From Mucilaginibacter tundrae (lineage in GTDB: Bacteria > Bacteroidota > Bacteroidia > Sphingobacteriales > Sphingobacteriaceae): DNA of 64,000 nt. Below, piece after piece: positions 14,366 to 62,856 of this stretch (the stretch's first letter is position 1; every line of letters begins with the position of its first letter). Position numbers and translations under genes: made by a program. The DNA lies in assembly GCF_013408825.1 (NCBI RefSeq), contig NZ_JACCBZ010000003.1, positions 124,001 through 188,000 on the forward strand, written 5' to 3'. Below the pieces are notes generated by a model. That model was not told where the DNA came from, did not search any database, and worked only from the letters and a program-made list of their open reading frames with translations.

Positions 14366-14452
14366 CGGTGAGGGAGGGATTCGAACCCTCGGTACAGTTT
14401 CCCGTACGTCAGTTTAGCAAACTGATCCTTTCGGCCTCTCAGGCACCTCACC
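14366..14452 (-). tRNA. tRNA-Ser(GCT)
   Basis: On the minus strand, positions 14452 to 14366 fold as an 87-nt class II tRNA. The acceptor stem is GGTGAGG with CCTCACC (14367-14373). The anticodon arm is CAGTTTGCTAAACTG with anticodon GCT, there is a long variable arm (ACGTACGGGAAACTGT), and the T loop has GGTTCGAATCC. The long variable arm and GCT anticodon identify serine (AGC/AGU codons). The CCA end is not encoded. It borders the mobile element, but its 3' end is not duplicated at the element's other side. Confidence 0.95.
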
Positions 14453-24548: not shown

Positions 24549-24576
24549 CCACCCAGACCCCTAAAGGGGGAGCTTA
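24548..24576 (+). repeat. Partial copy of a C/G-rich palindromic repeat
   Basis: The short sequence containing CACCCAGACCCCTAAAGGGGG resembles one half of the repeat family found at 58180-58260 and within smc at 60918-60994. The similarity was judged by eye over a short stretch. Confidence 0.35.
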
Positions 24577-24620
24577 TTAAGAAGAGGCTGTTTCATAAGC
24601 ATGAAACAGCCTCTTCTTAA
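24577..24620 (+). terminator. Long-stem terminator after the deacetylase gene
   Basis: A perfect 20-bp inverted repeat (24577-24596 and 24601-24620) with a 4-nt loop AAGC. The lower stem is A/T rich and the end is T/A rich, so it can terminate in both directions. Confidence 0.85.
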
Positions 24621-24669
24621 TTATAATAAACCATGCAAATGCACACGATTTTAAAAGTTTGATTTGTAT

Positions 24670-57398: not shown

Positions 57399-58190
57399 AT
57401 GAGGATCCCAATATTCCAGGCTGATGCATTTACAAGTAATCTTTTTGGCGGCAACCCGGCAGCTGTTTGTCCGCTAACGGAATGGCTGCCTGATGAGGTG
57501 ATGCAAAAGATAGCAATTGAAAATAACCTGGCTGAAACCGCTTTTTTTGTAAAGACAGATGGCGGCTATAAATTAAGATGGTTTACACCTGAATATGAGA
57601 TAGACCTTTGCGGGCATGCTACCTTAGCATCGGCACATATATTGTTTACCGAGCTGGCTTACGGTGGCGATGAGATCCATTTTGAAACGGTGAAAGCCGG
57701 TATACTGCATGTTAAACGCGATGGCGACAGGTACACGATGGATTTCCCTTCTCGCCCGCCGATACCTATTGACGCGCCGGTGGGGTTGACTGAGGCTTTA
57801 AGTGACAAGCAGCCGGTGGAAGTTTTGCGATCAAGGGATTATTTTATTGTTTATGAATCGGAGGATGAGATCAGGGATATTTCGCCTGACTTTTTCGCTT
57901 TGTCAAAAATGGACACGGTTGGGGTAATTGTAACAGCGCCGGGTAAGGATGTTGATTTTGTATCACGTTTTTTCGCGCCGGGGGCGGGTATCCCAGAGGA
58001 TCCGGTTACGGGATCGGCACATTGTAATTTGATACCTTACTGGGCAAAGAAATTGGGTAAGGATAAACTGCACGCTTACCAGCTTTCATCCCGTAAGGGC
58101 GAACTTTGGTGCGAGTTAAAAGGCGACCGGGTTTTGATGAGCGGTAACGTGGTTACTTTTTTGAGCGGGGAAATAATCAGCCCCCTCTAA
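57399..58190 (+). CDS. PhzF-family isomerase/epimerase
   Basis: A 263-aa protein of the PhzF (diaminopimelate epimerase-like) family. It begins MRIPIFQADAFTSNLFGGNP and has the catalytic Glu in ENNLAETAFF and the C-terminal EDPVTGSAHC motif. The reaction of this member is unknown. Its stop codon (58188-58190) lies within a palindromic repeat that starts at 58180, so the last two or three codons are probably repeat-derived. Confidence 0.93.
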   Translation: MRIPIFQADAFTSNLFGGNPAAVCPLTEWLPDEVMQKIAIENNLAETAFFVKTDGGYKLRWFTPEYEIDLCGHATLASAHILFTELAYGGDEIHFETVKAGILHVKRDGDRYTMDFPSRPPIPIDAPVGLTEALSDKQPVEVLRSRDYFIVYESEDEIRDISPDFFALSKMDTVGVIVTAPGKDVDFVSRFFAPGAGIPEDPVTGSAHCNLIPYWAKKLGKDKLHAYQLSSRKGELWCELKGDRVLMSGNVVTFLSGEIISPL

Positions 58191-58260
58191 ATCTCCCCCA
58201 GAAGGGGAGACTTTTAATTTGCTTTTTTAGCTCTCCCTTCCGGGGCGGGTTGGGTGGGGC
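58180..58260. repeat. 81-bp palindromic repeat at the 3' end of the PhzF gene
   Basis: This C/G-rich stretch begins GCCCCCTCTAAATCT and ends TTGGGTGGGGC, with internal hairpin TCTCCCC/GGGGAGA. It is an inverted copy (similar by eye over most of its length) of 60918-60994 inside smc. It supplies the PhzF stop codon. Confidence 0.85.
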
Positions 58261-58900: not shown

Positions 58901-58990
58901 AAGGTGATTATTTGTTAATGGATAAAGGGAAAAGGCGGTGGAATTGTTTGCGGGAGTTGAAAGATTGTGGTGCTGTCTGCCTTAATGTCA

Positions 58991-59068
58991 TTTCGACCGG
59001 AGGGAGAAATCTTTTACTACTTGCAAGTTCGGATACAGGGCGAAGAAGATTTCTCCCTCCGGTCGAAA
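58991..59068. repeat. 23-bp perfect inverted repeat upstream of smc
   Basis: TTTCGACCGGAGGGAGAAAT begins the left arm (58991-59013) and its inverted copy is at 59046-59068, loop 32 nt. It is unlike the 58180-58260 repeat. A partial relative (CGGTCGA and TCGAAACG) occurs at about 62830-62850. Confidence 0.85.
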
Positions 59069-59165
59069 CGACAAGGAGTTATGACCGGTGCTGAGAAATA
59101 TTTTCAAAAAACAATTTTTATAGCTACTTTGAAGGTCGGAATTTTTGCGTCCTGAATTAATTTAA

Positions 59166-62100
59166 ATGCAGCTTACCAGTTTAGAAATCAAGGGGTTTAA
59201 AAGCTTTGGCGATAAGATCACCATTAATTTTAATGAGGGTGTTACGGCTATTGTGGGCCCTAATGGCTGCGGTAAATCAAATGTGGTGGATTCCATCCGC
59301 TGGGTACTCGGTGAACAAAGCACCCGGATGCTGCGCTCTGAGAAAATGGATAATATCATTTTCAATGGATCAAAGAGTCGCAAACCGGCAAATCTGGCCG
59401 AGGTCTCGCTTACTTTCGACAATACTAAAAATATCCTGCCTGTTGAGTTTTCGCAGGTTACCATCACCCGTAAATTATACCGCAGCGGAGATAGCGAATA
59501 TCGTTTGAACGATGTGCAGTGCCGTTTAAAGGATATTACCGATCTGTTTTTAGATACGGGTATCGGTTCGGACTCTTACGCCATTATTGAGCTGAGGATG
59601 GTTGATGAGATCATCACCAACAAAGAAGGCTCTCGCCGGAATTTATTTGAGGAGGCATCGGGTATCTCCAAATACAAACTCCGAAAAAAACAAACTTTCA
59701 ATAAGTTAAAAGATACCGAAGCGGATTTGGAGCGGGTAGAAGATTTGCTTTTCGAAATAGAAAAGAACCTGAAGACGCTTGAAAATCAAGCTAAAAAGAC
59801 GGAGCGCTATTATCGCATCCGCGATCAATATAAATCGCTGAGTATTTTGCTAGCGTCGTTCAGGATAGCGCATTTTAGTGAATCGCTGGCAAAGATCGAG
59901 GAGAAAGAGCAGGTTCAGCAGGTTGAAAAGTCAGAAGTATCTGCTCAAATAGATACTTTGGAAGCGGCATTGCAGCAGCAAAAGCTGGATAGTTTGAATA
60001 AGGAAAAAAACCTTTCGATCCAACAAAAAACCACTAACGAGTATGTATCCAAAATAAGGGCCTACGAGAGTGAAAAGAAAATAAAAAATGAGCAACTGAA
60101 GTTTCAGCAGGATAAGGAAGCGCGGGTTAGCGATGAGCTGGAACGTGACCGTAACCAGTTGAACCACGTGCTATACAACATAAAGCGTTTAGCTGAGGAA
60201 AAGCTGCAGGAAGATGAGACGCTGCAAACTATACTGGAGCGGGTTACAGAATTGAAGGAGACCGTTGATGAATTAAAGGCTCAGCAAGCATCTGCAAGAA
60301 ATGAACTGAACGACCTGACCGGCAATAACAACAAGCTACAAAACCAGGTTTATAAGGCTGAAAAGGACCTGGAGATATTACAGATCCAGCAACAAGCTTT
60401 GGAGCAGGAAAGTCAGCGGAATATGGAGGATGCTACCAATAAGGAGGTGGAACTTTCACATTTTAACGATGTGGTTGCTGAATTACAGGAACGTACCGAA
60501 ACACTGAATAGCGAGCACCAAACACTGCTTGATTTCGATAAAAAATTACAGGAGCAGTTAATTGAGATAGATGCGGAGCTGACCACTGTTAAGGAAAGTA
60601 TTGTTGCTGACAGCCGAAAATTGGACGCGAAGCAGAATGAATACAACCTTACCAAGAGTATGGTTGATAATTTGGAAGGCTTTCCGGAGTCGATACGTTT
60701 TCTGAAAAAGAACGCGGACTGGGCGAAGAATATCCCGCTGTTTAGTGATATTTTGTTTTGTAAGGAGGAATATCGCGTAGCCATTGAAAACTATTTGGAG
60801 CCGCTGATGAACCATTACGTGGTGAATAATTATGATGAGGCGATCAGCGCGATCAAGTTATTGAGTAATTCGGCTAAGGGCAGGGCACAGTTTTTTGTGC
60901 TGGATAGTTATAAAATAGCCCCACCCAAACCCTCCCCGGAAGGGAGGGCTTTAGAAAGTAAAGTCTCCCCTGCCGGGGTAGATTTAGAGGGGGCCGGGCT
61001 TATTGCGGCGTTGAATGTTGTTGATGTTGACATTTACTACCAAAGTCTGTGTAATTATTTATTGAAAGATGTTTATTTGATAGATGATCATAACGAGCAG
61101 GTTTTGAACAATGCGGAGTTGCCGGAAGGCGTTGTGCTTATTGGCAAGAGTGGCAAATTCAATAAATCAAAACACACTATGGCCGGTGGGTCGGTGGGTT
61201 TGTTTGAAGGTAAGCGGATCGGGCGGGCTAAGAATTTGGAGAACCTGGCTAAGGAGATCAAGCAGTTTGATACCCGGGTTAACTATTTTAAGGATCAGCA
61301 GCAGGATTTGCAGAACGGGCAGGCTGCATTAAAGGCATCTAACAAAACAGAAGAACTTAAGCAAAAGCAACTGGAGGTTAACCGTTTGAACACGGAACTG
61401 ATCACCGTTAAAACGCGGCAGGAACAGTATCAAACGTTTATTGCCAACAGCCTTAACCGTAAGGATGATATTGCCAAAAAGATCAGCGGTATTATTGAGG
61501 AAACCGCGGTGCTGAAGCCGGAACTGGCCGAGTTAAAAACCCAAAAGCAGATACAGAATGACCTGCTGATTAGCAAGCAGGGTATTTTTAATGAGTTGAA
61601 CGAGTTTGTTTCAGTACAATCCAATGCTTTTAACCAGGAAAATATCCGCTTTCATCAGCAGCAGAATAAGGTTTCAGGGCTATTTAAGGATCTTGACTAT
61701 CGTAAAACGCAGAAAGAACAGTTAGAAGGCCGCATCAAAATAAACAGCATTGAACTTGAAAAAGTTAAAGCAGCTATACAGGAAAATCTGCAACTGGCCG
61801 ATAACTCCGACGATGATCTGCTGGAAATGTACGCGCAAAAGGAGGCTTTAGAAAAAGCGACCCAACAAGCGGAACAGGAATATTATGAATGGCGCGGGAA
61901 AATAACGGAAGCCGAAGCTGAGGTGACCAATCTTCGTAAAAAGAAAGATAACGCCGTATTTATTGAGAACGAACTGCGTGATGAGCGCAATAACCTCAAA
62001 CTGGAACTGAACGCGCTGAAGGAGCGGCTTTCGGTTGAGTTTAATGTGGATATACAGGAGCTGATCGATACCGATGTGCCGGTTGATGAAAGTGAAGAAG

Positions 62101-62753
62101 AACTGCGCGAGAAAACTGAAAAGCTGAAGAAGCAAATGGACGATTTCGGGGCGATAAACCCGATGGCGGTGGAGGCTTATAACGAGATGAATGAGCGCTA
62201 CCAGTTTATCCAGGCGCAGAAGAAGGATTTGGCGGAGGCTAAAGCATCATTATTAGCTACAATACAGGAAATTGACGATACGGCGAAGGAGAAATTTATG
62301 TCGGCGTTTATTATGGTGCGGGAGAATTTTATCAAGGTGTTTAGGTCGCTGTTTAACGAGGAGGATTCCTGCGATCTGATCCTGACAGATCCGGATAGGC
62401 CATTGGAGTCGGATATTGATATTATCGCGAGGCCTAAGGGGAAACGGCCGTTGTCGATCAACCAGTTATCGGGCGGCGAGAAGACTTTGACGGCTACGGC
62501 TATCCTGTTTTCGCTTTACCTGTTGAAGCCTGCGCCGTTTTGTATTTTTGATGAGGTTGACGCGCCGCTGGATGATACGAATATTGATAAGTTTAATAAT
62601 ATCATCAGGGAGTTTTCTAAGGAATCGCAGTTCATCGTGGTATCGCATAACAAGCGGACGATTGCGAGTACGGATATTATTTACGGGGTGACGATGGTGG
62701 AACAGGGAATATCGCGCGTGGTGCCGGTGGATTTGCGGCAGCTGGCGGATTAG
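59166..62753 (+). CDS. smc: Chromosome segregation protein SMC, with repeat-derived hinge insert
   Basis: An 1195-aa ATPase that organises chromosomes. Walker A is GPNGCGKS (residues 31-38), the signature motif is LSGGEKT (about 1101) and Walker B is CIFDEVDAPLDD (about 1127). Long coiled coils lie on both sides of the hinge (about residues 515-670). Inside the hinge, residues about 585-610 (PKPSPEGRALESKVSPAG) are coded by a palindromic repeat like that at 58180-58260. The frame is kept open. The rest of the protein is intact and the length is normal. No scpA or scpB lies nearby. Confidence 0.97.
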   Translation: MQLTSLEIKGFKSFGDKITINFNEGVTAIVGPNGCGKSNVVDSIRWVLGEQSTRMLRSEKMDNIIFNGSKSRKPANLAEVSLTFDNTKNILPVEFSQVTITRKLYRSGDSEYRLNDVQCRLKDITDLFLDTGIGSDSYAIIELRMVDEIITNKEGSRRNLFEEASGISKYKLRKKQTFNKLKDTEADLERVEDLLFEIEKNLKTLENQAKKTERYYRIRDQYKSLSILLASFRIAHFSESLAKIEEKEQVQQVEKSEVSAQIDTLEAALQQQKLDSLNKEKNLSIQQKTTNEYVSKIRAYESEKKIKNEQLKFQQDKEARVSDELERDRNQLNHVLYNIKRLAEEKLQEDETLQTILERVTELKETVDELKAQQASARNELNDLTGNNNKLQNQVYKAEKDLEILQIQQQALEQESQRNMEDATNKEVELSHFNDVVAELQERTETLNSEHQTLLDFDKKLQEQLIEIDAELTTVKESIVADSRKLDAKQNEYNLTKSMVDNLEGFPESIRFLKKNADWAKNIPLFSDILFCKEEYRVAIENYLEPLMNHYVVNNYDEAISAIKLLSNSAKGRAQFFVLDSYKIAPPKPSPEGRALESKVSPAGVDLEGAGLIAALNVVDVDIYYQSLCNYLLKDVYLIDDHNEQVLNNAELPEGVVLIGKSGKFNKSKHTMAGGSVGLFEGKRIGRAKNLENLAKEIKQFDTRVNYFKDQQQDLQNGQAALKASNKTEELKQKQLEVNRLNTELITVKTRQEQYQTFIANSLNRKDDIAKKISGIIEETAVLKPELAELKTQKQIQNDLLISKQGIFNELNEFVSVQSNAFNQENIRFHQQQNKVSGLFKDLDYRKTQKEQLEGRIKINSIELEKVKAAIQENLQLADNSDDDLLEMYAQKEALEKATQQAEQEYYEWRGKITEAEAEVTNLRKKKDNAVFIENELRDERNNLKLELNALKERLSVEFNVDIQELIDTDVPVDESEEELREKTEKLKKQMDDFGAINPMAVEAYNEMNERYQFIQAQKKDLAEAKASLLATIQEIDDTAKEKFMSAFIMVRENFIKVFRSLFNEEDSCDLILTDPDRPLESDIDIIARPKGKRPLSINQLSGGEKTLTATAILFSLYLLKPAPFCIFDEVDAPLDDTNIDKFNNIIREFSKESQFIVVSHNKRTIASTDIIYGVTMVEQGISRVVPVDLRQLAD
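60918..60994. repeat. Palindromic repeat inserted in frame inside smc
   Basis: Begins GCCCCACCCAAACCCTCCCC and ends TAGATTTAGAGGGGGC, with internal hairpins CCCTCCC/GGGAGGG and TCTCCCC/GGGGTAGA. Its reverse complement matches 58180-58260 closely, including a 15-nt identical end (GCCCCCTCTAAATCT). It codes about 26 residues of the SMC hinge. Confidence 0.85.
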
Positions 62754-62856
62754 CAGTTTGTGAGCGTGGACGCTCATTAGAATTTGGATTTAACCGTGGA
62801 CGCTTGAACCGGCGGTAGCATCTGTTTCTTCGGTCGAGCTGTCGAAACGAAAAGAA

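Follow-up and report, generated by a model that had tools for sequence, protein, structure and literature searches.

The window, that is the whole 64-kb stretch of DNA that was analysed, carries an smc gene whose hinge-coding region contains a palindromic repeat, here termed family A, and a second copy of this repeat (the twin) at the end of a PhzF-like gene. The relevant features are as follows.

57399-58190, + strand: PhzF-like gene (PF02567), with the end of its open reading frame (ORF) inside the twin
58180-58260, - strand: second family A copy (twin), between convergent genes, at the 3' end of phzF
59166-62753, + strand: smc host gene, an ORF of 1195 codons (1195 aa)
60744-61088, + strand: SMC hinge domain PF06470 (Pfam), residues 527-641
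60918-60994, + strand: family A palindromic element in smc, 77 bp, in frame, read from the sequence

The palindromic repeat in the SMC hinge

The smc copy consists of a left half (about 60918-60953) and a right half (60960-60994) and encodes the peptide APPKPSPEGRALESKVSPAGVDLEGA, corresponding to SMC residues 585-610 within the PF06470 hinge. Its position, its frame and the absence of a stop are as described in the initial annotation. The same holds for the twin at the PhzF gene end, which lies on the opposite strand, matches the smc copy at 82% (E 3e-14), has the 15-nt identical terminus and contributes both the final codons and the stop codon to the phzF ORF. Inverted arms of 35 nt (91%) and 42 nt (76%) were found, and both copies fold better than shuffled sequences (z -2.8 and -3.3, with an equally good fold in 2 and 1 of 200 shuffles).

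SMC is 1195 aa long in the genome under study (G000), versus 1178 aa in the relatives G009, G026 and G029, and the loop receiving the insert counts 31 residues versus 14. The repeat had been said to add about 26 residues; it does encode 26, but the net gain is only 17, so that the G000 protein lacks about nine residues that the loop has in the relatives. As the structural model of the hinge is poor (mean pLDDT 54), with the insert disordered and among the least certain parts, the placement is based on the sequence and Pfam. None of the 35 candidates from a protein search with the insert region reached E 0.01; the region is probably too short to serve as a query.

The window contains further repeats. 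Just upstream of smc, a different palindromic family is present at 58986-59073, in which 32 nt separate TGTCATTTCGACCGGAGGGAGAAATCTT from its inverted counterpart. At 62766-62810, GTGGACGCT repeats resemble the REP AAGCGTGGACGCTT found around a Y1_Tnp (RAYT-like) gene elsewhere in the same genome (locus L065), a gene that may have its own separate REP family. A 21-nt perfect inverted repeat with a 4-nt loop at 24576-24621 is terminator-like. An Rfam scan of the window yielded a tRNA (14366-14452) as its sole match.

Distribution of the insert among SMC proteins of the genus

From 61 sampled genomes of the same genus, 56 SMC sequences were read. The nearest relative, G009, has an SMC that is 95% identical and lacks the insert, as do the next relatives G026 and G029. 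The gap foreseen in the initial annotation is therefore present in all three, within a comparison that covered same-genus SMCs. In a motif test, 5 of the 56 proteins contain whole or partial family A peptides in the same loop: whole and forward in G000 and G028, whole and reversed in G021, and as halves in G047 and G057. The longer loop of G010 may represent a decayed copy. Loop length also varies among other SMCs of the genus; in the SMC tree, the loops of G011 and G048 were mis-measured (length 1) and their state was left unjudged. Judging from the opposite orientations and the tree, this one loop seems to have received insertions at least three times.

Family A in the genome and the genus

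The whole-genome search on which the initial annotation had made its proposal depend returned 45 matching stretches in G000 (4.83 Mb, 24 contigs), a count obtained with 40 of 53 candidates scored and in which some stretches are two halves of a single copy. Given this number, the occurrence of the repeat in smc is not due to chance. Together with its absence from the G009 protein, it bears out the proposal of a lineage-specific, in-frame repeat of the mobile type, comparable to the Rickettsia palindromic elements (RPE). The common form reads GCCCCACCCAA(A)CCCTCCCCGGAAGGGAGGGCTTTA, followed by an AT-rich loop of variable length and AAAGTCTCCCCTACCGGGGGAGATTTAGAGGGGGC. Among 30 loci of this genome read by eye, most copies are intergenic or at gene ends, and the clear intragenic cases are smc and leuS.

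The genus-wide SMC search also matched the family A peptide within unrelated long ORFs. Thirteen such loci were read, revealing in-frame copies in IcmF (three genomes), IspG (two genomes, with two copies each), UvrA, LeuS (two genomes) and a protein without a Pfam match (L095), while at the remaining four the copy is not covered by any long ORF. Since these loci were found with the peptide, the frame of their copies is not independent evidence. An exact search with the DNA of the right half alone detected at least 116 stretches, and 80 loci resolved into 87 distinct places among the matches listed: 8 inside long ORFs, 19 at ORF edges and 60 outside. The eight inside places belong to six loci, and four of them are the ends of two LeuS nuclease units (see below). 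All eight are in codon phase 0 (six forward, two reverse). As three of the six frames of the 32-nt right half are open, one open frame is never used; 'inside' is defined here by an open frame, so that broken genes are uncounted. Apart from one Spirosomataceae MAG, the titles listed in the right-half search are Mucilaginibacter or Bacteroidetes.

First-look candidates were most abundant in G056 (95), G027 (88) and G021 (69). No nuclease unit with family A ends was read in these three genomes, a statement that covers all four DUF559 matches of G021 and part of those of G056 and G027. A search by eye for target-site duplications gave no clear answer, the loops being too variable. At one locus (L007), the element lies exactly central in the inverted sequence TTCGGCAAAA/TTTTGCCGAA, a position that may hint at target choice.

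Nuclease units in leuS and other host genes

The leuS gene of G000 (contig C6) carries a 155-residue in-frame insert composed of APSKSPPEGET, a 107-residue DUF559 match (PF04480, E 9e-34) and KVSPAGGDLEGA, located directly before YELSTMPGWAGSSWY. The nuclease thus sits between the two halves of the family A palindrome, and the ends of the unit share 34 to 35 identical nt with other copies in the genome, including a 34-nt stretch in common with the twin at 58180-58260. A second leuS was sought in this genome and none was found. The open frame runs through the insert, which speaks against an intron, and Pfam detected DUF559 and no intein (Hint) domain in the leuS insert and the host proteins scanned.

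PF04480 occurs in 54 of the 61 same-genus genomes, often within open frames of 336 to 1409 codons. In the loci read, the fused hosts, identified by sequence motif with Pfam run on examples, are HisF (16), IcmF (14), LeuS (6), TruB (4), an Lhr-like helicase (3) and HisH (1); the HisF and HisH fusions are at the gene start. In a database search for the DUF559 architecture, 156 of 199 candidates reached E 1e-5 or better; the 120 matches listed include LeuS, IcmF, MiaB, MetH and a DegT-type protein. A second search, for the HisF type, gave 334 of 464 at the same threshold, and of the 120 matches listed nearly all contain a HisF domain and two contain PF00117. Two LeuS proteins, P0013 (Pedobacter) and P0001, have nucleases at two sites each.

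Whole nuclease units are homologous end to end across unrelated hosts, and they are inserted beside conserved motifs of the host genes. Purifying selection acts on the nuclease, whose invariant residues are conserved, and its domain matches the homing endonuclease I-Bth0305I (Vsr/EDxHD-type). Nuclease lineages follow the insertion site, with jumps between genes, in a tree in which many forks are unresolved.

Occupied sites differ among genomes. At LeuS site 2, the 48 genomes parsed comprise 5 with DUF559, 1 with another insert and 10 with palindrome peptides only, the pattern having overlooked G008, which contains a nuclease. Palindrome peptides are present at LeuS site 1 in 14 of 53 genomes. 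At the IcmF site, G055 has only a miniature family A element and 13 other loci have nuclease units, in a parse that excluded L091, L094 and L123 (pattern unmatched).

Several individual loci deserve separate mention. The insert at LeuS site 2 of G057 (L185) is in frame, about 120 aa long and non-DUF559, with no significant Pfam match, and is perhaps another or a decayed nuclease. In G050 (L179), APSKSPPVGET is joined directly to LEGA at this site, a junction that looks like the scar of a lost nuclease unit. In many genomes other repeat-like peptides (ENQESRVKSQE, RISDFQFRNSDKSEIENPKSE) fill the loop of LeuS site 1, which for this reason looks like a general sink for repeats. Finally, a free-standing DUF559 gene of G000 (L202, C2:293700-297100) lies amid several copies of a longer palindrome from another family.

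Inverted repeats flanking DUF559 genes

DNA to the left and right of each DUF559 domain was compared, and inverted repeats with a score of 25 or more were counted. Of the 73 domains in the loci read, 72 were tested (one flank being too short); weaker and fragmentary PF04480 matches were left out. With flanks placed outside the domain match, 45 of 72 loci scored positive (21 of 44 fused, 24 of 28 free-standing), versus 0 of 44 and 1 of 28 controls. HisF loci escaped detection with this placement, as their right repeat lies within the domain match. With shifted flanks, inverted repeats were found at 67 of 72 loci (helicase 3/3, HisF 15/16, HisH 1/1, IcmF 14/14, LeuS 3/6, TruB 4/4, free-standing 27/28), versus 2 of 142 distant control stretches and, among ordinary genes of the window, 1 of 48. 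At least two of the three failing LeuS units, those of G023 and G033, fail because their two family A halves are unlike each other, as they are in the SMC copy. The palindromes surrounding DUF559 genes belong to several unrelated families.

In a survey of Bacteroidota, PF04480 was detected at E 1e-10 or better in 66 of 158 genomes. Among 29 loci read, 12 lie in ORFs of more than 250 aa (MetH, LeuS, restriction-modification-like and others, named by eye). Flanking inverted repeats occur at 19 of the 29 loci and at 10 of the 12 fused ones, versus 1 of 51 controls; the link between palindrome and nuclease is weaker outside the genus.

Proposed origin and movement of the SMC insert

The SMC insert probably represents a miniature, non-autonomous version of a nuclease-encoding element with palindromic ends, which survives in essential genes through in-frame translation in tolerant loops. 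In full-length members a DUF559 (Vsr/EDxHD-type) endonuclease frame is enclosed by a left and a right half-palindrome, while in miniature members nothing but a short AT-rich loop parts the two halves. Both forms have the same termini, the units are fused in frame to their hosts, and their presence among close relatives is patchy. From this anatomy, the phylogeny and the kinship to a homing endonuclease, we infer that movement is nuclease-driven. The nuclease might cut the empty site or the extruded palindrome, upon which repair would copy the element in, as in homing, and miniature copies could be carried in trans. Genic copies would survive only with an open frame in a tolerant loop, such as the SMC hinge loop or the two LeuS loops.

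Alternatively, the palindromes could be the primary mobile repeats, moved by other means, with DUF559 genes as passengers in safe palindrome loops. Miniature copies are indeed far more numerous than nuclease units, DUF559 genes are surrounded by several unrelated palindrome families, and in some genomes rich in family A no family A unit was read. We nevertheless regard this as unlikely in view of the end-to-end homology of units in unrelated hosts and of the copy number of a palindrome, which varies with the corresponding unit type but not with a different type (with first-look candidates as a proxy, and statistics that ignore relatedness). Mobilisation as REPs by RAYT-type tyrosine transposases is very improbable. 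Although five Y1_Tnp proteins are encoded in the genome and intragenic REPs linked to RAYT are known (PMC3733652), family A is absent from all five Y1_Tnp loci: comparison with 26 copies of the genome gave chance matches only (35 matches, at most 27 nt and 25 bits, versus 35 identical nt for the leuS unit). Moreover, a scan of the four longer Y1_Tnp loci revealed different strong inverted repeats at three of them, and the GTAG tag was not found at the ends of the 26 copies. With neither family A at these loci nor GTAG ends, RAYT is disfavoured as the mobiliser.

Recruitment of the insert for an SMC function, such as DNA binding by the hinge or regulation, in the sense of the exaptation suggested in the initial annotation, would fit the repeated occupation of one hinge loop in the genus, yet it is exceedingly improbable given that most relatives lack the insert, that both orientations and partial remnants are present, and that loop length varies in other SMCs. 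Removal of the insert from RNA or protein, or its bypass by ribosomes, would account for the tolerance of about 155 extra residues by LeuS; this is next to inconceivable, as the frame is kept and stops are absent, Pfam detects no intein (Hint) domain, and the miniature form is far too short for self-splicing.

Comparison with known systems

Intragenic palindromes are known from the RPE of Rickettsia and from REPs of several bacteria (PMC2229807, PMC3733652), and R. conorii truB also has a palindromic insertion (PMC3733652). Like RPE, family A is palindromic, dispersed and located both between genes and in frame within conserved genes, and in this sense is RPE-like. It differs in belonging to another phylum and in having nuclease-carrying relatives, whereas the sections on RPE in PMC2229807 and PMC3733652 mention no encoded enzyme. 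The ends of the 26 copies of the genome were searched for the CGTC tag and none was found; family A is set apart from RPE by its ends and its host (its kin being Mucilaginibacter). With the REP/RAYT system (REPtrons) it has in common dispersed palindromes, some of them in genes, REPs being located in genes such as uvrA, truB and those for tRNA synthetases (PMC3733652); unlike REPs, the family A copies of this genome have no GTAG end and no adjoining tyrosine transposase.

EDxHD homing endonucleases such as I-Bth0305I, which reside in introns, inteins and free-standing genes, have a related catalytic domain and site-faithful lineages, and likewise insert beside conserved host-gene motifs. Invasion of coding genes by homing endonucleases has been tied to splicing in a review (PMC3943268), while here palindromes border a nuclease that forms a continuous reading frame with its host, and no intein domain was found. 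Bacterial MITEs are similarly internally deleted forms with terminal inverted repeats common to a coding relative, but the coding relative of family A is a PD-(D/E)XK-type nuclease and not a DDE or tyrosine transposase. In the open-licence literature, to which our search was confined, no account was found of DUF559 genes forming in-frame units with palindromes. To this extent family A looks new, and so, most notably, do the non-splicing units with a nuclease in essential genes.

More tentatively, endonuclease units with palindromic ends, entering essential genes in frame and persisting in the protein unspliced in several Bacteroidota groups, could constitute an entirely new kind of mobile element, with SMC-type miniatures as offspring, and similar nucleases may have driven the spread of RPE and other such repeats. 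The mode of transposition of RPE-type sequences was named as a question for future work in a 2007 review (PMC2229807), and a section on CGTC repeats in a 2013 paper reports no dedicated transposase for them (PMC3733652). The nuclease-carrying relatives, absent from the initial annotation, change the meaning of the SMC find: full-length relatives with the same ends encode a candidate enzyme for the movement of coding palindromes, so that the question becomes testable. They also show that endonuclease genes can reside within essential proteins without any indication of splicing, and many DUF559 proteins thereby gain a plausible biological context. The nuclease-bearing relatives in essential genes of this soil bacterium and its kin suggest how such repeats spread.
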